Source: a virus. Taken from it: a stretch of 35,727 nucleotides of DNA. The first letter of the stretch is position 1; the number at the start of each line of letters is the position of its first letter. Shown here piece by piece: positions 9,422 to 22,648 of this stretch. The stretch spans positions 1 through 35,727 of the IMG/VR virus record IMGVR_UViG_3300043409_000542. One strand, written 5' to 3'. Below the pieces are notes generated by a model, which searched no databases, was not told the DNA's origin, and worked only from the letters and a program-made list of their open reading frames with translations. Made by a program: the position numbers and the translations under genes.

Positions 9422-9601
9422 ATGAAAACGCACACCATCGAAATTTCCCTTGCTGAACTGCAAGCCGCTTTGCGCGAGTACTGCTTGCAGCACGGGCACA
9501 ACCCAAGCTGCGTGAGCATCGTCAGCCACGAGAAAACAATTATGGTCGAGCTGGAGCCTAACGGCTTGGTGACCGCAGACGGGTTTGCCCATCGTGCTTG
9601 A
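9422..9601 (+). CDS. hypothetical protein (59 residues)
   Basis: ATG 9422 to TGA 9599-9601. The N-terminus MKTHTIEISLAELQAALREY reads as a beta strand followed by a helix, and the protein is acidic with three Cys. There is no good ribosome site, consistent with a leaderless message from the promoter at 9388-9415. It overlaps the VRR-NUC gene by a few bases. Family not recognised. Confidence 0.65.
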   Translation: MKTHTIEISLAELQAALREYCLQHGHNPSCVSIVSHEKTIMVELEPNGLVTADGFAHRA

Positions 9602-9866
9602 AAAGCAAGTCGAACGCTACTTAGTCAAGAAGGTCGAGGCCGTCGGTGGCAAGGCGTACAAGTTCACCAGCCCAGGGCGTGGCGGTGTGGCCGACCGCAT
9701 TGTGTGCCTGCCCGATGGCAGCACTTGGTTCGTCGAACTCAAGACAGCAGGCGGCAAGATGTCCGCGCTGCAACTGATCTTCGCCGAGGACATGCGCCGA
9801 ATGAAGCAGAACTATACCGTGCTGTGGTCAAAGGAGGATGTGGATGCGTATCTTAATAGCCTGTGA
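9594..9866 (+). CDS. VRR-NUC domain nuclease
   Basis: Product of 90 residues, single-domain VRR-NUC endonuclease of the PD-(D/E)XK superfamily, probably resolving branched or flap DNA in replication or recombination. Catalytic residues visible: D34 in GVADRI, E48 and K50 in FVELK, and Q60. The N-terminus EKQVERYLVKKV and SPGRGGV are typical. GTG 9594 gives the usual family N-terminus; TTG 9585 is possible. It overlaps the next gene, with a strong AAGGAGG inside its own 3' end. Confidence 0.9.
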   Translation: MLEKQVERYLVKKVEAVGGKAYKFTSPGRGGVADRIVCLPDGSTWFVELKTAGGKMSALQLIFAEDMRRMKQNYTVLWSKEDVDAYLNSL

Positions 9867-10419
9867 GTACAGCGGTCGTGTGCGGGATGCGTTTATTGCC
9901 AAGGGCCATGACGCGATGTCATGCGACTTGCTGCCCACGGACGCGCCGGGGCCGCACTATCAAGGTGATGTGTTCGATGTTATCGGGGGGGGGTGGGACA
10001 TGATGATCGCACATCCACCTTGCACACATCTGGCCGTATCTGGTGCTATGCACTTCGCTGCCAAACGCGCCAGCGGCGTCCAGCAAAAGGCATTGGCATT
10101 TGTACAACAGTTGCTGGACGCGCCGATATCGCGCATTGCCTTGGAAAATCCAGTAAGCATTATCAGCAGCCACATACGAAAGCCAACGCAGATCATTCAC
10201 CCGTGGATGTTCGGGCACACAGAACAAAAGACCACTTGTCTATGGCTTAAAGGGGTTGCACATCTTGTGCCGACAAACGATGTAAAAGCGCAGATGCTGT
10301 TGCTACCCAAGAATCAACGCGAGCGTTTGCACTATTTACCCCCTAGCGCGGATCGTTGGAAACTGCGAAGCGCGACTTACCAAGGCATCGCCGACGCGAT
10401 GGCAGCACAATGGGGCTAA
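9844..10419 (+). CDS. cytosine C5 methyltransferase-like protein
   Basis: Product of 191 residues. The start at 9844 is chosen because AAGGAGG (9831-9837) lies 6 bases upstream; ATG 9838 is too close. Motifs resemble DNA cytosine-5 methyltransferases: an N-terminal SAM-binding-like strand (RILIACEYSG), HPPCTHLAVSG with C60 like motif IV, and LENP (100-103) like motif VI. FGHTEQKTTCLWL is a signature of this phage family. It lacks a recognisable target recognition domain, so activity and target are uncertain. It contains a run of nine G (9985-9993). It overlaps the helicase by 10 bases. Confidence 0.8.
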   Translation: MRILIACEYSGRVRDAFIAKGHDAMSCDLLPTDAPGPHYQGDVFDVIGGGWDMMIAHPPCTHLAVSGAMHFAAKRASGVQQKALAFVQQLLDAPISRIALENPVSIISSHIRKPTQIIHPWMFGHTEQKTTCLWLKGVAHLVPTNDVKAQMLLLPKNQRERLHYLPPSADRWKLRSATYQGIADAMAAQWG

Positions 10420-11678
10420 GACCATATCAAGTAGAGGCGGCTAACTTCTTGTTCGACAATGACCGGGCGATGATCCTCGCCCCGGTCGGCGCTGGCAAGA
10501 CAGCTATCACGCTCACGGCCATGCAGTCGGCGCTGCATGAGGGCGTGGTGAACCGCTTTCTGGTGCTGGCGCCCAAGCGCGTATGCACTAGCGTCTGGCT
10601 GCAAGAGCGCGACAAGTGGGCGCCCGCGATGAGCATGGCCGTGGCCGTGGGGACGCCCAAGCAGCGCGCAGCGGCGTTCAACTCAGTAGCTGATGTGGTA
10701 GTGACCAACTACGACAACTTGCAGTCGCTGCCCCATCTGGACTTCGACGGGATTGTGTTCGACGAGTTGACCCGGCTGAAGAACCCCAGCGGCGCCAGGT
10801 TCAAGGCGCTGCACAAGCTGATCGACTGCCCTGTGCGTTGGGGCTTGACCGGATCGTTTACCAGCAACGGGCTGGAGGATGTGTTCGGCCAATGCAAGAT
10901 TGTGGATCAGAAGCTGCTGGGCCGTTCCAAAGGCGCGTTTCAGCAGCAGTACTTCTACCTTGTCAACAAGGAGTTCAACGACTGGGCGCCGCGCAAGGGC
11001 AGTCTGGAAGCGGTGATGGAGCGCATCAAACCGGCCACCTTCGTCTTGGATGCGGGAGAGTACAAAGACAAGCTGCCGCCGCTGCACACGGTCGAGGTGC
11101 GCTGCGACATGGACATGACCAAGTACGACGAGATGAAGCAGCACTTCGTGGTGGAGTTCCCAACGGCCAAGGCCATAGCAGTCAACGCTGCTGTGGTCAC
11201 CGGCAAGCTGCAACAGATGGCAAGCGGGTTCGTGTACGGCGACTCGACCGAGTGGTTTAGCACCCACAAGTTCGACGCGCTGGACGATCTGCTGGCCGAG
11301 AACCAACGCGCTAACACGATCATCTTCTACACCTACCAAGAAGAACTTGCCGAGTTACGCCGACGCTACCCGAAGGCGCGGACGGTAGACGCAATCGACA
11401 GTTGGAACCGGGGCGAGGTTGAGTTGCTGCTGCTGCACCCCAAGAGCGCAGGGCATGGGCTGAACCTACAGCATGGCGGGTGCAAGTGCGTGTTCTTGTC
11501 GCTGCCGTGGTCGCTGGAGTTGTACGAGCAGGCCATCGGGCGCCTGCACAGGTCGGGTCAGGCCCATGCGGTGTGGGTCTACATCATGCTGACCAACAAA
11601 ACGGTGGACGAGAAAATTTGGGCCGCGCTGCACAGCAAGCGCGCGGTGTCGGATGTTGCAATGGAGGAGCTGAAATGA
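10410..11678 (+). CDS. SNF2/DEAD-like superfamily II helicase
   Basis: Product of 422 residues from ATG 10410, overlapping the preceding stop. Motifs: Q-like LRPYQVEA (3-10), Walker A GAGKT (27-31), Walker B VFDELT with D118 and E119, motif III LTGS (147-150), and motif VI GRLHRSGQ (377-384). Such compact SNF2 helicases are common in the replication regions of phages with VRR-NUC and DUF2800 nucleases. Likely role is DNA translocation or fork remodelling. The stop overlaps the next start (ATGA). Confidence 0.93.
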   Translation: MGLRPYQVEAANFLFDNDRAMILAPVGAGKTAITLTAMQSALHEGVVNRFLVLAPKRVCTSVWLQERDKWAPAMSMAVAVGTPKQRAAAFNSVADVVVTNYDNLQSLPHLDFDGIVFDELTRLKNPSGARFKALHKLIDCPVRWGLTGSFTSNGLEDVFGQCKIVDQKLLGRSKGAFQQQYFYLVNKEFNDWAPRKGSLEAVMERIKPATFVLDAGEYKDKLPPLHTVEVRCDMDMTKYDEMKQHFVVEFPTAKAIAVNAAVVTGKLQQMASGFVYGDSTEWFSTHKFDALDDLLAENQRANTIIFYTYQEELAELRRRYPKARTVDAIDSWNRGEVELLLLHPKSAGHGLNLQHGGCKCVFLSLPWSLELYEQAIGRLHRSGQAHAVWVYIMLTNKTVDEKIWAALHSKRAVSDVAMEELK

Positions 11679-11990: not shown

Positions 11991-12133
11991 ACATATCTTA
12001 TTTGACTCGGGTACGGGCGCACTTCAACTGCGCCGAGAAACATATCAACAGGCACAACATGCGCCAATGGGTGCGCTCGGTACGGTTCCTGGGCGACAAA
12101 TGGCTGCTGGCCGTACAGGTGGTGCGGAAATGA
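11987..12133 (+). CDS. hypothetical basic protein (48 residues)
   Basis: ATG 11987 to TGA 12131-12133, coupled by ATGA on both sides. The product is rich in Arg, His and Trp (HINRHNMRQWVRSVRF) and could bind nucleic acid. It directly precedes the transglycosylase-like gene. Family not recognised. Confidence 0.6.
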   Translation: MNISYLTRVRAHFNCAEKHINRHNMRQWVRSVRFLGDKWLLAVQVVRK

Positions 12134-12849
12134 TCCACTACCACGGGCTACCGATTACGCCAGCTACGGTGGCCGTAGTAGCCGTTAACGGAGGGCACGC
12201 GTTTGTTAGTTTTGCTCATTCAGATCAACTAGGCATAGCCATAGAGGTGTGCCAATCGTTTGCAGTTGACAACGGCGCTTTTTCCGCGTGGAAAGCCGGG
12301 CGGCCCGTAACCGATTGGCGTCCGTTCTATGGGTGGGTTGAGGCGTGTCGCCGCGTTCCGTCGTGTGACTTTGCAGTCATCCCCGATGTGATTGACGGCG
12401 ACGAAAACGCAAACGATGCGTTGTTGGATGAATGGCCTTTGGGAGCGGCTTTCGGCGCGCCTGTATGGCATATGCACGAATCGCTAGACAGGCTGGAGCG
12501 AATGGCTTTGACTTACTTGCGTGTGTGCATCGGCAGCAGCGGCCAGTACGCCAGCGTAGGAAACGATGCTTGGTGGAAACGAATTGACCAAGCGATGCGC
12601 GTAGTCTGTGATTCGCAAGGGCGTCCCCTGGTCAAAATGCACGGTCTTCGGATGCTGAATCCAAAAGTGTTTACGCGCCTTCCGCTTGCCAGCGCCGATT
12701 CGACTAATATCGGCCGGAATGTCGGCATTGACAAGAATTGGGCAAAGGGGAACTATTTGCCCCCTACTAAAGAAGCGCGCGCGCAAGTCATGCGATCACG
12801 CATTGAGTCACACAACGCACCATCAACTTATGAATACCTACAAGACTGA
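12130..12849 (+). CDS. TGT/DpdA-like deazaguanine transglycosylase
   Basis: Product of 239 residues from ATG 12130, coupled to the preceding stop. Read as a short member of the tRNA-guanine transglycosylase/DpdA superfamily, which exchanges guanine for a 7-deazaguanine base. Matching parts: DNGAFSAW (47-54) like the DSGG motif with the general acid Asp; CDFAVIPDVIDGD (79-91) like the substrate-binding Asp region; IGSSGQ (134-139) like the Gly motif; KMHGLR (169-174); and ADSTNIGRN (189-197), where D190 would be the nucleophile. No zinc-binding Cys set of tRNA TGT is visible, favouring DNA as target. Next come a QueF-like and a YhhQ-like gene. Alternative: an uncharacterised TIM barrel of another function. 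Confidence 0.75.
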   Translation: MIHYHGLPITPATVAVVAVNGGHAFVSFAHSDQLGIAIEVCQSFAVDNGAFSAWKAGRPVTDWRPFYGWVEACRRVPSCDFAVIPDVIDGDENANDALLDEWPLGAAFGAPVWHMHESLDRLERMALTYLRVCIGSSGQYASVGNDAWWKRIDQAMRVVCDSQGRPLVKMHGLRMLNPKVFTRLPLASADSTNIGRNVGIDKNWAKGNYLPPTKEARAQVMRSRIESHNAPSTYEYLQD

Positions 12850-13069
12850 ATTTTTCTGCTTGTGCCCTCTCAACGAAACGCGCATCAAATACTTTTTGGA
12901 GATTGCCACAGATGAAATAATTCCGGTAGAAGACATCATTGACCAATTTAAAAACTACGCCAGCGGCTTTCACGAACTGATTGCTGAAGACTTGCACAAA
13001 AAATTTGGTGGAAAACAAACCCTCGTCGCGGATCACCACGGCGTCACTATCGAAACGACAAGACCATGA
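12830..13069 (+). CDS. minimal QueF-like T-fold protein
   Basis: Product of 79 residues; ATG 12830 lies 20 bases inside the transglycosylase gene, without a clear ribosome site. The pattern fits the T-fold of QueF (preQ0 reductase): FFCLCP (8-13) like the catalytic-Cys strand, VED with E34 like the substrate Glu, two helices, FHE (47-49) matching the conserved QueF FHE, and a final strand HHGVTIE. It lacks the QueF ESKSLK-type NADPH motif, as does archaeal QueF-L, which adds ammonia to preQ0 to make archaeosine. It is much shorter than QueF (about 150 residues). Predicted to act on the deazaguanine nitrile; this is inference from motifs and neighbours. Confidence 0.6.
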   Translation: MNTYKTEFFCLCPLNETRIKYFLEIATDEIIPVEDIIDQFKNYASGFHELIAEDLHKKFGGKQTLVADHHGVTIETTRP

Positions 13070-13557
13070 TTCTCTACTTTGCGATTGCTCTCTATTTAAC
13101 GGCCATGATCTCGGCCAATTTACTTGTAGTGGCTTTTGGCCCTGCAATAAGCCCAATCAATGCCTTCTTTTTGATTGGCTTAGACCTTGCCCTGCGCGAT
13201 TGGTTGCATGTTCGATTGCGCGTTTGGCAAATGGGCGCGCTCATAGCCGCAACTGGCGCGCTTACTTATGTTCTCAACCCTGCCGCCGGTCAGATCGCCA
13301 TTGCGTCGGCGTGTGCGTTTACGGCTTCATCGCTTGTGGACTGGGGCGCGTTTACGCGGTTGCGCGGGTCATGGATGTTCCGCGCCAACGGTTCTAATGT
13401 GGTGGGCGCTGCGGTTGATAGCCTGTTGTTTCCAACAATTGCATTTGGTATGCTAATGCCTCAAATTGTCGCAATGCAATTTGTTGCCAAAGTAGCCGGC
13501 GGTGCTGTTTGGGCGTGGCTACTGGCCGTGCAGGTGCAGAAAAAGGTGCAGCTATGA
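13066..13557 (+). CDS. YhhQ/VUT-family queuosine-precursor transporter
   Basis: Product of 163 residues, integral membrane protein of the inner membrane with about five or six hydrophobic helices. The C-terminal half, FTRLRGSWMFRANGSNVVG followed by AVDSLLFPTIAFG, is characteristic of the VUT (YhhQ, DUF165) family that imports preQ0 or preQ1. It is shorter than E. coli YhhQ (about 220 residues), as phage versions tend to be. It is joined to the QueF-like gene by an ATGA overlap, so the two are probably translated together. It would supply the deazaguanine base for the transglycosylase. Confidence 0.85.
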   Translation: MILYFAIALYLTAMISANLLVVAFGPAISPINAFFLIGLDLALRDWLHVRLRVWQMGALIAATGALTYVLNPAAGQIAIASACAFTASSLVDWGAFTRLRGSWMFRANGSNVVGAAVDSLLFPTIAFGMLMPQIVAMQFVAKVAGGAVWAWLLAVQVQKKVQL

Positions 13558-16722: not shown

Positions 16723-19341
16723 CTATTCTTCTGTACCTTGCACCGCGCCGCGCATTGCGCCTGTTTTGATGTCCGACACGGCGTCCGCTACCCATTGAAG
16801 ACCGTATTTTTTTCCTATCTCTACGGCATCCGATATTTTTTGTTGGTTAAAGCCGCTGATTCTAGGTTCCAATGCGTTGAACACTTTCACCGCATCTGAT
16901 GGGTTTAGAAGCAAGGTTTTTAATTTTTCTTCAGTTTTAGCTGACGCAGTTTTAGCCCAATACTTACTGAACAGCGAAGACATAGCATATACCGGCCCAG
17001 AAACAGGGTTATAAATACGCGAAATAATTTGCTCCGGTGCTATACCTGTAAGTTGTTCTACAGGTGTTTTAGCTACTGTCTCGCCTCTAAATGGAACGGC
17101 GCTAACATCTTTAGCCAGCCTATCAGATGCAAGCGCAAAGTCCTGCACTTTTTGAGCGTAAGTAGGGCCAAATACGCGGTTAAATATGGCCGCTTTATTT
17201 CTATCTGCCAGCACAGTTAACGGAGATCCGGCGTTAACGATATCGTCCAGCATAAAAGATCGCACAGCGTTAACGGCATCTTTATTTTGCCCGTACTGGC
17301 TATTGGACATAAATTTTGATGTAAAGGCTAGATCGCCGTACATTTTTGCAACAAGTTCTTGCGGGCTTTTGAACCCGTTTTCGCTTATTAATTGTTCTCC
17401 CGCTACACGCTTAAACGCAGCATTTAACCTAACTCGTTCAGCTATCAGTTTTTGAACATTATCTACCGACCCGCGCAATTCATCTTCTAGTCCAGGCACT
17501 ATAGACACGCCGCCCTGATTGGTTTTTAACCATTTATTAGCGGCCTTAATGTCAATCACATCATTTTTAAGCGCGGCTTTGGTAAAGCTGTCAAAAAACG
17601 CATCTCGTACTATGGCCGTGCCTTCCGCGCCAGTAGCGCGTATGAACTCATCGGCGCTTGATTTATTGCCAATAATGGCGGGGCTAATTTGTTCGACAAA
17701 CTTTTTACGGTCTATTGATTTAAGGGCCTCAGAACTAAAAGGTAGTCCTACTTTTTCAAGATACGCTTTATCTGCGTTACGATACGCAGTTACAAAATCT
17801 GCGTCAAGCGCATCTATATGCCCAGCCACACGCGACTTTAATTCGGTCAACAAGCGTACATCCGACGCTTCGCTAGTTTTACGCAACTGCGAATTTATTT
17901 CACGCTTCAACGAGTCCAGGTCTTCTACTGTAGCCGCTGAAAATTTAACCCCCGCTGGGATAGCAGGCTTACCTTCAGCGGTAAGAATTGCGCTTGGCTC
18001 TGTAACTTCAGGGCGAAATTTAGCCCTGACGCGATTGTAGATAGACGGAAAAGTCTTAAATATATCTGACGCTTGCGCGCCTGCTACAAACCCATAAATA
18101 TCATCTACCGAACCAGACGGAAGTTCTAAATTTTTAGCGGCAGCTATATCAAACGCTTCTTGGTATAGCGGCTTAACCGAAACGCGCGCGGCTTTTTCTT
18201 TCTGCTCTACAAGCGCGGATATGCGTTGCCCAAATACAGTTGGATCTATAGTCCTATCGTTAGACAGGTCTGAAATTTGTTCATCTATCGACCGCACTCG
18301 TTTTACTTGTATGTTGGTTAAATCAGGCGCGCCTATTTTTAGCTGAACTTTAGACGGATCGCCAAATAAACGCATTTGATTTACCACTAGCGCCTGTTTA
18401 GCTGCTTCATATTGCGCGCCGTATTGCGCGCGGAACACCGGATCTTTTGCGGATAAATTTTGAATAAATGTATTGATGACCGGATTATCGGCCAACAATG
18501 CGCTTAACGGCATCTGAACATCAGCGCCGCCTGGGGCTTTTAACGACACGCTTTTCTGCGCTTTTGTCGCGGCTTCTAGTGTGGTTAAGAAGTTAGGGTC
18601 GGCAGCACCAGCGGCTATAAACACATTACTAATGCGGTTATCGACATCTTGCATTAGTTTATCTTCTGGGATGCCGCCTTTAATTTTTGTCCAAGTATCA
18701 CGCGCTAAATCAAGACCTTTTGTAGCCGCTAACTCAGTTACACGCGCTGCGGTTCCAAGGCCATATGCCGAAGTTGCACCGCCAAATAGCGACCCAAGAA
18801 TACGACCGGCTAACGGCATCTCAGCCTTGCCGCCAGCGTATTCCCCGGCTTGTCCACCAGTTTCTGCGCCAGCACCTACAACTGCTTGTTCAGTTGGGCG
18901 CATTAATGCCTGTCCAAACAACCCAAGTCTCTTAGTCGCCGCAAGTGGAGGGAAGGCGTAAGATTCTGGCGAAAACATTGCCTCTGTACCCGCAGCCAAG
19001 ATTTTTTGACCGCCGGTCTGTGGTTCTGCGCCGGTACTGCCAAGCGCAGCCATAGCAGGCTTATAGACAGCTTCTTTACCGGCTTTATACGCTTGCGTAA
19101 CGCCTTGGGGCGTCATTTGTGGCATGCCCAACGGCACACCGCCGCCCAGCATGGGGGTGACGCCGTAGGTAGCCATTACCTCGCCTATACCAGCCAAAGA
19201 CGATGGTAGCCCAGCTAAACCTTTACGCGCGCTCTCTAGCATCACTTTAAACGTAGATGGCGCGGAAAGTTCTTCTAGTTCTTCTGGCGTAAGCGCGGTA
19301 TCACTTCTGTACCGCTTACCTTCAATGTCGTAAACTGGCAT
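16723..19341 (-). CDS. large internal virion/DNA ejection protein
   Basis: Product of 872 residues, the largest protein of the genome; GAGGAATAAAA precedes ATG 19341. The N-terminus MPVYDIEGKRYR and an early hydrophobic, Gly-rich part are followed by long helical segments. Size and position, behind the stabilisation protein and two other long helical proteins, match the internal core or ejection proteins of podoviruses that form the DNA channel through the host envelope. No peptidoglycan-cleaving motif was spotted. This gene and its neighbours at 17-20 kb look more AT-rich than the replication region. Confidence 0.7.
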   Translation of the reverse strand: MPVYDIEGKRYRSDTALTPEELEELSAPSTFKVMLESARKGLAGLPSSLAGIGEVMATYGVTPMLGGGVPLGMPQMTPQGVTQAYKAGKEAVYKPAMAALGSTGAEPQTGGQKILAAGTEAMFSPESYAFPPLAATKRLGLFGQALMRPTEQAVVGAGAETGGQAGEYAGGKAEMPLAGRILGSLFGGATSAYGLGTAARVTELAATKGLDLARDTWTKIKGGIPEDKLMQDVDNRISNVFIAAGAADPNFLTTLEAATKAQKSVSLKAPGGADVQMPLSALLADNPVINTFIQNLSAKDPVFRAQYGAQYEAAKQALVVNQMRLFGDPSKVQLKIGAPDLTNIQVKRVRSIDEQISDLSNDRTIDPTVFGQRISALVEQKEKAARVSVKPLYQEAFDIAAAKNLELPSGSVDDIYGFVAGAQASDIFKTFPSIYNRVRAKFRPEVTEPSAILTAEGKPAIPAGVKFSAATVEDLDSLKREINSQLRKTSEASDVRLLTELKSRVAGHIDALDADFVTAYRNADKAYLEKVGLPFSSEALKSIDRKKFVEQISPAIIGNKSSADEFIRATGAEGTAIVRDAFFDSFTKAALKNDVIDIKAANKWLKTNQGGVSIVPGLEDELRGSVDNVQKLIAERVRLNAAFKRVAGEQLISENGFKSPQELVAKMYGDLAFTSKFMSNSQYGQNKDAVNAVRSFMLDDIVNAGSPLTVLADRNKAAIFNRVFGPTYAQKVQDFALASDRLAKDVSAVPFRGETVAKTPVEQLTGIAPEQIISRIYNPVSGPVYAMSSLFSKYWAKTASAKTEEKLKTLLLNPSDAVKVFNALEPRISGFNQQKISDAVEIGKKYGLQWVADAVSDIKTGAMRGAVQGTEE

Positions 19342-19343
19342 TT

Positions 19344-20819
19344 TTATTCCTCTACAACGGTTACCATTTTTCCGCTATTTAATTTAATTTGTTTACCGCC
19401 CATAGCTGCTGATTCGGGTTTTGGACGAAACTCGGGTATATCTGTAACTGCTGCAAAATCAGCATCATTAAAACCAGCGCGTTTAGCAAGTGCTTTTTGT
19501 GCTGCCAATTCTTCTTGGCCTTTCTTGAGCGAGACTTTGCGTATGGCAATCAGCGTATTTTTTATCTGTTTTTGTGTATCAAGTGTAGGTGTCCCGCTAA
19601 CAAGTTTAGATAAATAATCCGCTGTCCCGCCTAATAAACTAGGATCGGCGCCAGCAGCAAGAAGTTCTTTTTGGCTTAAATCACCAGCACCAGAGATAGC
19701 GCGTGCAAACTGTGTTTGCCCAGCCCTAAATGCGGCAAAATTATTTGTGCTCATGGATAGATCAATAGCATCAACAGCAGCATCTGCGGCGTTTATAGTT
19801 TTTCTAAATGGATCTATAGTTTGAATAACGGCCGTTCTTAGCCCCGGTATATCTTTTACGCCTTTAATCTCTGGAATCTTAGGCGCTGATTTTGCAGCGA
19901 CTGTCCCTTTATTTTCTTCTATGGTCGTATTTACTTTGGCGCGTTCGACTTGTGTAAGATCACCAAAAGATTTATCAAACAGTTCCATCGAAACCGCTTC
20001 TCTATCAACACCAAATCTATCAGATTTAGTAGCTTTTTCTATTAACTTATTTACATCTGCTGCTTGCCCCTGCGTTAATTCACCGTATGACTTTCCAAAA
20101 GTTGCAAATGCCATTCGTTCAGCATCTGGCCCTGCGGTAATTTTTTTGCCCGTTGATTGGCCAAGTAGTCTAGCGTACTCTGCGTTGAATTCTGGCGTAC
20201 CAAAAGGGAATTTCGTTAGCGCTAGGGCCGTTGCGTTCTTCATTTCGGGCGTTGTGACTTCGGCTTTTTCTTGGCGTTTAAGTTGCTCTATTTCAGCATC
20301 TATGGCATCTCTTTCTGGGCCGTATGGGCTAACATTCGCGCGCTCCATCGTAAGTTCGCGTATACGGGTGGCTATCTGAACCGCCGGGGCCACACCTTCT
20401 TTAGGTGTTCTAGATGCTGCTGCTAAGGATGCTTTAGCGGCGGCGGTCTTCTGCTCTACGCCAGCCAGTTCAGATTGCGCTTGACGGGCGTAGTTGGCTA
20501 GGCTCATGGCACCTTCGTTATCGCCTGATTGGGCAAGCAGCTTTGCGCCCTGCATGATCGACTCAGGGTTCGATTGGTCGATTTGTTGCAGCACAGCATT
20601 GCGACCGCTGATGATCTTCATCTGCGGATCTTCGCCGCCGAACATGCGGCCTAGCCCACCAGCCAGCCCATACGCGCCGCTTTGGATGTTCAAGTTGGCC
20701 TGCTGTTGGGGCGTTAGCTGAACATTTTGAAACGCACGCGCATCAAACGCAGCTTGCTGCTGCTGACGGTACGATTCGGGCGTTACGCCGAAAAGACCAG
20801 GAACAATGTTAGTTGCCAT
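19344..20819 (-). CDS. internal virion protein (second)
   Basis: Product of 491 residues with AAGGATACTAATC before the start. It begins MATNIVPGLFGVTPESYRQQ and is helical throughout, with Gln- and Ala-rich stretches and a repeated pair of related segments (MAFATFGKSYGELTQGQAAD and MELFDKSFGDLTQVERAK) spaced about 50 residues apart. Its place between two other long helical proteins supports a virion-internal or ejection role. No enzyme motif seen. Confidence 0.7.
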   Translation of the reverse strand: MATNIVPGLFGVTPESYRQQQQAAFDARAFQNVQLTPQQQANLNIQSGAYGLAGGLGRMFGGEDPQMKIISGRNAVLQQIDQSNPESIMQGAKLLAQSGDNEGAMSLANYARQAQSELAGVEQKTAAAKASLAAASRTPKEGVAPAVQIATRIRELTMERANVSPYGPERDAIDAEIEQLKRQEKAEVTTPEMKNATALALTKFPFGTPEFNAEYARLLGQSTGKKITAGPDAERMAFATFGKSYGELTQGQAADVNKLIEKATKSDRFGVDREAVSMELFDKSFGDLTQVERAKVNTTIEENKGTVAAKSAPKIPEIKGVKDIPGLRTAVIQTIDPFRKTINAADAAVDAIDLSMSTNNFAAFRAGQTQFARAISGAGDLSQKELLAAGADPSLLGGTADYLSKLVSGTPTLDTQKQIKNTLIAIRKVSLKKGQEELAAQKALAKRAGFNDADFAAVTDIPEFRPKPESAAMGGKQIKLNSGKMVTVVEE

Positions 20820-20830
20820 GATTAGTATCC

Positions 20831-22648
20831 TTAGCTGCTAAAAATTTTAGACAGATAATCAGCAAAGGCTGCGCTTCCTCCCGCACCCGTTAGGACAGAC
20901 GCAAACGGATTGTATTGATTCGCGGGTACTGATGCCTGCGCTGCTGCCGTACCGCCCTTGAACAATGCCTCTGCGCCGGTCGGGTTGGCGTTCTTACTGC
21001 CGATGTTCATGCCAAGCTGGAACGGTTGCTGGCCTAACTCCTCCAATTGCGTCACGCCAGCCATAGCCGCCTTGTACGGATCATAAGCGCCGACTTGCCC
21101 CTGCTGGTATTGCGACAATGCCTGGGCGCCAGCCCCAAACAAGCCCTGACCGAAGGCGTACTGTTGCTGACCGGCCTGCTGGGCGCCTGCCGCAAGTTGC
21201 GCGTCCGCTTGCATTTGAGCGTTGTAGTAGGCTTCCAGTTCAGGGCTAGCCGCCGCGCGGCCTGTTCCGAACCCATATCTACTAAGACCCTTTGCGATAT
21301 CTGCGTCAGAAAAGCCTTGCTTACGGGACTCGTCTATGGCCTTAACAAGTTGTTCTGGCGTGTACTGTGGGCCAGTAGCGCCAACGGCCACGCCACTACG
21401 ACCTTGCTGGTACAGTTTGTTTTGCAGATCGGCTAGGCTGCGCTCACGCCCAGGTTGCAGTAGCGCCTGCTGGCTTGAGATGTACTTAGCCGCGACTTGC
21501 TCTGGCGTTTCGGCGGCGTAACTTGCGCCAAGTTTGAACAGACCTTCTGCTGAAGTTTTAAGCGGTGCGTACAGATTGGCCGCGCCTTCTGCCTGTGTAA
21601 GCCCGGTAACACTAAGCGCCTGCATCCGGTCTTGGTACGCCTTCATCTCAGGCGTTAGGGTGTACCCGGCAGAAGTCACGCGCCCGGTCACAGGGTCGGT
21701 AACGAAGTTGGATGTACCAAATTTAGTCGTAACGCCAACTGGCCTAAACCGCGCCTCATCAGCGGCTATTTTTGCCGCATCAGTTAGGGCTTGTGCTTGT
21801 ATGCGCGCGGCTTCAACATTGCTTTGCCCCTGCATCAGCCCACCAGCAGTCTGTAAAGCCCCGGAGATTGCGGCGGCTATCTGAGCCGCAGTCAATGCGG
21901 TGCCAGCAGTAGATGCTATTTTGGACGCCGCATCGGCTACTTGAGCGGTAGTAAGACCAGTCTGGGCGGCAGTAGCAGCTATCTGAGCCGCCGTAAGAGT
22001 GCCAGTACCAGCGGCTGCTGTCTGAGCGGCTAATTCAGCGGCGGTATAGGCGCCTGGGCCAGCAGCTATGGTAGAAGTAAGAAGGCCAGTACCGCCAGCA
22101 GTAGCAGCATTGGCGGCTGCTGTCTGAGCGGCTAATTCAGCGGCGGTATAGGCGCCTGGGCCAGCAGCTATGGTAGAAGTAAGAAGGCCAGTACCGCCAG
22201 CAGTAGCAGCACCTAAAAGCCCACCGACAGCATTAACCCCAAGACCAGTAAGCGCGGCGGGAAGAACGAAATCGGTGGCTAGTGTGCCGACATTGGACAA
22301 CATGCGACTAGCGGTGCTAGTCTCATCACGCACATACTGACCCTTCGTGTCAAAAATCTGAACTGCGCCAGTAGGGCTTGTCTTGCTATAGCCCTCTACG
22401 GTATTGGTAAATTTTAGCTGGGGTGTCTCTTGACTTTGATCGTAATACGAACTATAGATAGGTGTAAGACCGGGCGGCGTAACTGCGTTATTGGCAAAGT
22501 AGCTTGCTACATTGGTAGCCGGGATACCTGTTGCGCTAGACAGTTCTTCTATCGTAAGGCCTTGGGCTGCTGCGTATTTAGCTATGACATCTGGCTTGTC
22601 TATGTTATCTACAACATATTTGCGTATTGTTTCTGCTTTAGTAGCCAT
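20831..22648 (-). CDS. internal virion protein with a recent 34-residue tandem duplication
   Basis: Product of 605 residues, ribosome site AAGGAACGATC. The N-terminal half contains an Ala/Thr/Gly-rich repeat region with TGLLTSTIAAGPGAYTAAEL occurring twice, then a helical region (EAARIQAQALTDAAKIAADE) and GTSNFVTDPVTGRV, which I associate with podovirus internal or tail-hub proteins. No enzyme domain. Role in DNA ejection inferred from neighbours. Confidence 0.7.
   Translation of the reverse strand: MATKAETIRKYVVDNIDKPDVIAKYAAAQGLTIEELSSATGIPATNVASYFANNAVTPPGLTPIYSSYYDQSQETPQLKFTNTVEGYSKTSPTGAVQIFDTKGQYVRDETSTASRMLSNVGTLATDFVLPAALTGLGVNAVGGLLGAATAGGTGLLTSTIAAGPGAYTAAELAAQTAAANAATAGGTGLLTSTIAAGPGAYTAAELAAQTAAAGTGTLTAAQIAATAAQTGLTTAQVADAASKIASTAGTALTAAQIAAAISGALQTAGGLMQGQSNVEAARIQAQALTDAAKIAADEARFRPVGVTTKFGTSNFVTDPVTGRVTSAGYTLTPEMKAYQDRMQALSVTGLTQAEGAANLYAPLKTSAEGLFKLGASYAAETPEQVAAKYISSQQALLQPGRERSLADLQNKLYQQGRSGVAVGATGPQYTPEQLVKAIDESRKQGFSDADIAKGLSRYGFGTGRAAASPELEAYYNAQMQADAQLAAGAQQAGQQQYAFGQGLFGAGAQALSQYQQGQVGAYDPYKAAMAGVTQLEELGQQPFQLGMNIGSKNANPTGAEALFKGGTAAAQASVPANQYNPFASVLTGAGGSAAFADYLSKIFSS
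22011..22211. repeat. 102-bp in-frame tandem duplication
   Basis: Bases 22011-22109 and 22113-22211 are identical over 99 bases with a period of 102, or 34 codons. Complete identity at third codon positions marks it as a very recent duplication, or a length-variable repeat. Confidence 0.9.

Follow-up and report, generated by a model that had tools for sequence, protein, structure and literature searches.

The locus considered here raises the question of what a protein of 79 residues does when its gene is wedged between those of a guanine transglycosylase and a likely importer of queuosine precursors, and whether such a protein is a QueF, a QueF-L or neither. The window, by which we mean the whole stretch of 35,727 bases analysed, is the IMG/VR virus record IMGVR_UViG_3300043409_000542 and carries a podovirus-like gene set including terminase, portal, major head protein, DNA polymerase, primase and endolysin.

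A small gene between a transglycosylase and a transporter

The gene for the mini T-fold protein (TF) starts with ATG and occupies positions 12830-13069 on the plus strand; its product matches phrog_37496 (E 5.4e-17). An earlier note, made from the sequence, had placed the frame at these coordinates and pointed to C10, C12-P13, E34 and F47-H48-E49, and frame and translation agree in every one of these details. TF is a real gene under purifying selection, as evidenced by a dN/dS of 0.10-0.29 (NG86, against three close homologues) and by a start and an end that are common to its homologues.

Upstream lies a short DpdA of 239 residues, counted from a conserved MIHYHG start (12130-12849, plus strand; phrog_887, E 1.1e-68). 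Its AF2 model resembles the archaeosine TGT 1iq8 with a Z of 15.6, queuine TGTs with about 14.5 and DpdA 7ui4, which inserts preQ0 into DNA, with 14.0. The gene thus encodes a TGT-type fold akin to that of the insertase, the feature by which DpdA is recognised. Downstream follows a VUT/YhhQ-family transporter of 163 residues, likely an importer of preQ0 or a queuosine precursor (13066-13557, plus strand); it scores 49.7 bits against Pfam Vut_1, with a cut-off of 27.2, and 28.7 bits against TIGR00697, which is under that model's own cut-off. The 5′ end of TF overlaps DpdA by 20 nt and its stop codon lies in an ATGA overlap with the VUT gene, which makes it probable that the three genes are a single unit with coupled translation.

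This association extends well beyond the window. Of the 103 other loci, 102 encode a short DpdA within 0.5 kb of TF and in the same orientation, which bears out the earlier placement of TF in a DpdA-type DNA-modification module; DpdA either precedes or follows TF, frequently overlapping it, and in 24 of the TF-DpdA loci a VUT transporter adjoins them as well. The exception (L038, 5001-5240) is a TF that keeps all signature residues on a 40.9-kb viral contig, perhaps a fragment, without a detectable DpdA.

Several features of these neighbourhoods deserve mention in their own right. In Acidovorax delafieldii (L054 4255-4944, equal to L101 5255-5944) DpdA is split into two frames next to an intact TF. 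A contig of 3 kb, assigned by binning to a Nitrosomonadales MAG, carries a near-identical DpdA-TF-VUT unit (L094 342-1736; TF 97%), a likeness that hints at Nitrosomonadales as the host of the window phage if the bin is right. Genes for a VRR-NUC nuclease and an SNF2 helicase adjoin DpdA-TF in the window (9585-11678) and, in the opposite direction, in Rhizobium phage RHph_X2_30 (L003 6939-8769); a small C5-methylase-like gene (phrog_757) stands between them in the window. ParB-like nuclease-domain genes stand beside DpdA in the unrelated phages Pantoea AH07 (L018 1182-2504), Mycobacterium Funsized (L210 1-1299), Arthrobacter Mufasa8 (L211 654-1358) and Cellulophaga phi38:2 (L212 4714-5178), and their products are possibly a further partner of DNA transglycosylases. 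Elsewhere in the window, three large consecutive proteins of 872, 491 and 605 residues, perhaps internal virion proteins, are encoded on the minus strand (16723-22648) next to structural genes and have no PHROG match.

A minimal T-fold related to QueF and QueF-L

For the TF family, phrog_37496, the PHROGs database gives neither function nor fold. An IMG/VR search for relatives returned 154 stretches, of which 80 were kept, and altogether 92 distinct family sequences were gathered from phages and prophages whose hosts are chiefly Proteobacteria, Pseudomonas among them. Among the named phages are Pseudomonas phage Epa33, Microcystis phage Mae-JY30 and Rhizobium phage RHph_X2_30, and relatives also occur in genomes of Pseudomonas, Acidovorax, Roseateles and others; a search of plasmids did not retrieve TF. 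Searches of Pfam, NCBIfam and PDB sequences with single sequences and profiles gave no match beyond chance ones such as Nup54. No description of the family was found in the annotations and literature surveyed, a survey that did not take in Cui et al. 2023, where an earlier mention is possible, and the papers found that pair preQ0, phage and DpdA do not mention the T-fold.

The AlphaFold2 model of TF, built from an input of 45 sequences, is of high confidence (pLDDT 96.8, pTM 0.84) and has the topology strand-strand-helix-helix-strand-strand, the bare T-fold unit. Its top PDB matches are the QueF-L structures 5jyx, in the thioimide form, and 5k0p (Foldseek E 2e-4, TM up to 0.83); with VIA, QueF-L superposes over 79/79 residues at an rmsd of 1.4 Å and a Z of 12.2, ahead of GTP cyclohydrolase I (FolE; 10.4), unimodular QueF (9.4), FolX/FolB (about 8.5) and QueD (7.7). 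Both the predicted single antiparallel unit of two strands, two helices and two strands and the structures that it matches identify TF as a T-fold protein, and the earlier note was right in proposing this fold, for which it had regarded the want of any T-fold match as decisive against it, and in naming QueF-L as a relative, since QueF-L provides the closest solved structure. TF is among the smallest tunnelling-fold proteins.

Profile-profile comparison, which the earlier note had suggested, likewise prefers QueF among the T-folds. The HHalign alignment of TF with QueF scores 25.8, against a mean of 10.8 (sd 2.3) for column-shuffled profiles, none of 100 of which scored as high, and it puts C12 on the catalytic Cys, E34 on the Glu at the head of the QueF motif, and FHE on FHE. 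Sequence similarity to QueF is weak, with no Pfam match; nevertheless, homology to QueF and QueF-L is well supported though distant, because the HHalign score exceeds all shuffles, C12, E34 and FHE are in register and the folds match. FolB scores weakly above its shuffles (1/100). FolE shares the T-fold, whereas its profile score is no better than shuffles and its zinc-ligand pattern is not retained; FolE-type zinc binding by TF was rejected, as the equivalent third position is Asp/Asn and a second conserved Cys is lacking.

Ten residues never vary in the 92 sequences: N2, Y4, F8, C12, E34, E49, A52, G61, H69 and V72. The C12-P13 codons (12863-12868, plus strand, as are those below) correspond by profile alignment to Cys55-Pro56 of QueF, which include the thioimide Cys, P13 being kept in 91/92. 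The E34 codon (12929-12931) corresponds in the HHalign alignment to Glu78, the first residue of an otherwise lost QueF motif. Among the F47-H48-E49 codons (12968-12976), E49 is the equivalent of Glu97, and position 48 is His in 85/92 and Gln in the remaining seven. The family also has a C-terminal signature of its own, H69-x-G-V-x-I-E-T-x (13034-13060), and position 15 holds, without exception, either Asp (54) or Asn (38). The earlier note had counted C10 in the CP-strand signature, a detail that did not survive the family alignment, where Cys occupies this position in 12/92 only. It had mentioned neither the invariance of H69 nor the family-wide absence of the catalytic Asp, which in QueF follows seven residues after the Cys: none of the 92 members has a conserved Asp six or seven residues past the Cys, and at positions 18 and 19, where QueF Asp62 would be expected, the residue is variable (R, T, Q, M and others) and I/V, respectively.

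These residues matter for classification. QueF is defined by Cys55, Asp62, Glu97 and a QueF motif with Glu78, the lack of any one making a protein a non-QueF; the motif used as the criterion is E(S/L)K(S/A)hK(L/Y)(Y/F/W), and Glu97 is the preQ0 anchor (PMC5372742). Cys55 and Glu97 have their counterparts in C12 and E49 of TF (each 92/92), Asp62 has none, and the Glu (E34) alone is kept of the motif; E(S/L)K(S/A)hK is not present in TF, as the earlier note had said of the NADPH cofactor motif. TF shares with QueF-L a QueF-type fold that has the thioimide Cys (Cys21) and no NADPH motif, and lacks the Asp general acid/base that is common to QueF and QueF-L (PMC5485725). By the published criteria, TF is therefore neither a QueF nor a QueF-L but a new short relative, because the Asp required of both and the cofactor motif required of QueF are lost; the earlier idea of a new subfamily is supported, as is a size much smaller than that of QueF.

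Known relatives help to define what is distinct about TF. The archaeosine synthase QueF-L of Pyrobaculum calidifontis (5jyx, 5k0p) is like TF in its full-length fold, the placement of its Cys, the missing NADPH motif and a partner from the TGT family (PMC5485725), and differs in its about 100-109 residues against 79, in its Asp, in the partner, which for TF is a phage DNA-type DpdA, and in that the activity of TF is predicted. TF resembles a QueF-L reduced to the fold, the nucleophile and the substrate anchors, and the earlier parallel between the two holds for the fold and the loss of the motif, whereas catalytic equivalence is weakened by the missing Asp (92/92). Of the residues of unimodular QueF (B. 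subtilis; PF14489), Cys55, Glu78 and Glu97 are matched by C12, E34 and E49, whereas Asp62 and the remainder of the motif have no counterpart; TF is half as long and has no Pfam match. The QueF or QueF-L proteins encoded near DpdA in the phages Dp-1, mycobacteriophage Funsized, Arthrobacter phage Mufasa8 and Cellulophaga phi38:2 show the same pairing of a QueF-type T-fold with DpdA/TGT. Those of Funsized, Mufasa8 and phi38:2, unlike TF, are at least 130 residues long and retain CPxTxxPD and IE(S/L)KSLK, and since they are longer and keep both Asp and motif, TF is distinct from them.

A QueF-shaped protein without catalytic Asp or cofactor site could serve host takeover, joining or blocking host QueF such that preQ0 stays unreduced to preQ1 and available for DpdA. 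T-folds assemble through conserved edges, and QueF is encoded in 18/19 host genomes with TF loci; a pure decoy would not, however, need C12, E34, E49 and H69 to be invariant in 92/92, and we regard this explanation as very improbable. QueC is likewise present in 18/19 of these genomes, which leads one to expect preQ0 in the host and leaves no obvious need for an extra preQ0 reductase. Several Pseudomonas genomes (G006, G097, G098 and G101) have two full-length QueC genes with nearly equal scores.

An optional cassette of the DpdA-VUT module

Among the 80 nearest DpdA relatives, which were picked by similarity and some of which lie on short contigs, 54 are accompanied by VUT only, 16 by TF and VUT, seven by TF only and three by neither. 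TF is thus missing beside 57 of the 80, nearly all of them with VUT. On a DpdA tree of 56 rows, well-supported branches show at least eight changes in the presence of TF, and the order of the genes switches too. The clearest case is the pair L259/L267, with 226 of 238 DpdA residues identical: the sequences match through the ATG after DpdA, then L267 carries TF, and the match resumes at VUT, as expected of a clean insertion. The TF-less DpdA-VUT relatives, the repeated changes on the tree and this insertion make TF an optional cassette of the DpdA-VUT module. No T-fold-like small neighbour, fused or substituted, was seen by eye at the TF-less DpdA loci of AB3P2, SPN3UB, D105 and Eeyore. In five near-identical pairs, the DpdA residue at position 233, in the variable tail, is the only one that differs in all five, with an inconsistent letter. 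A clean insertion beside a nearly unchanged DpdA indicates that DpdA works without TF, and suits a role for TF at a later, tailoring step.

The same observations bear on the notion that TF is not an enzyme at all but a preQ0-binding partner, which would capture scarce preQ0, perhaps reversibly via Cys12, and pass it to DpdA or withhold it from host QueF. Such a protein could well dispense with the catalytic Asp and cofactor motif and keep the substrate-anchoring Glu and the Cys; given the high stability of the thioimide in QueF (PMC5372742), preQ0 could be retained by a Cys that does not turn over, and TF is tightly coupled to DpdA and frequently to the importer as well. Yet DpdA-VUT modules with near-identical DpdA manage without it, and the conservation of H48, H69 and E34 exceeds what binding by itself would need, which leaves this an unlikely candidate.

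T-fold enzymes catalyse varied purine and pterin reactions, and TF might carry out other 7-deazaguanine chemistry, such as the decarboxylation of CDG to 7-deazaguanine, in which case DpdA would insert a different base. Cui et al. 2023 reportedly predicted CDG decarboxylase activity for the phage protein DpdL. In favour of this proposal, they are also reported to have described dDG and dCDG in phages. The recurrent VUT-type neighbour, whose characterised relatives move preQ0/preQ1, suits preQ0 over CDG, however, and DpdA is much the same whether or not TF is present; we consider such chemistry improbable.

A putative tailoring enzyme for a DNA base

The reading that we prefer, with a probability of roughly one half, is that TF is an enzyme of the DpdA pathway that tailors preQ0 by way of a thioimide, and that it probably does so once the base is in the DNA. 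The precedent is QueF-L, which forms a thioimide, released by NH4+, with preQ0 already placed in tRNA by TGT (PMC5485725). That TF is optional while DpdA hardly changes suggests a step on which DpdA does not depend, and hence tailoring after insertion, comparable to that by QueF-L in archaeal tRNA.

TF may have descended from QueF/QueF-L, or be their sister, as a minimal T-fold of about 80 residues. The VUT transporter, the host or both would supply preQ0, and DpdA would swap guanine in DNA for it. T-fold proteins form ring or barrel homo-oligomers with active sites between subunits, and we infer that TF, too, is assembled as a ring-shaped oligomer, takes preQ0 as its substrate and acts on the base within DNA, not on its free form. 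The 7-deazaguanine would be held through Glu49 and probably also Glu34, and Cys12 would attack the nitrile to give a thioimide, from which a small nucleophile would free the product, ammonia yielding dG+ and water dADG, although the product may be another. Protons would be moved by His48/His69 instead of Asp, with E34 also a candidate; the loss of the Asp makes H48, H69 or E34 necessary as proton movers and is the main weakness of the tailoring proposal, against which weak sequence similarity to QueF and the locus without a detectable DpdA (L038) also count. More tentatively, TF could represent a new T-fold enzyme family, the first to act on DNA, in which a Cys12 thioimide and a His-based proton relay lead to dG+, dADG or an undescribed derivative, and which serves as an exchangeable cassette that varies the base modification.

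DpdA-VUT phages with and without TF, such as L259/L267, are natural matched pairs, and a comparison of their DNA bases would reveal the role of TF. The family is an unrecognised addition to the phage 7-deazaguanine DNA-modification toolkit, strictly tied to DpdA, and it probably finishes the DpdA-inserted base chemically, which would help the phage to escape bacterial defences. Should TF turn out to act on DNA, no earlier T-fold enzyme with that property would be known, and the protein would illustrate how small a part of the QueF fold suffices for nitrile chemistry.
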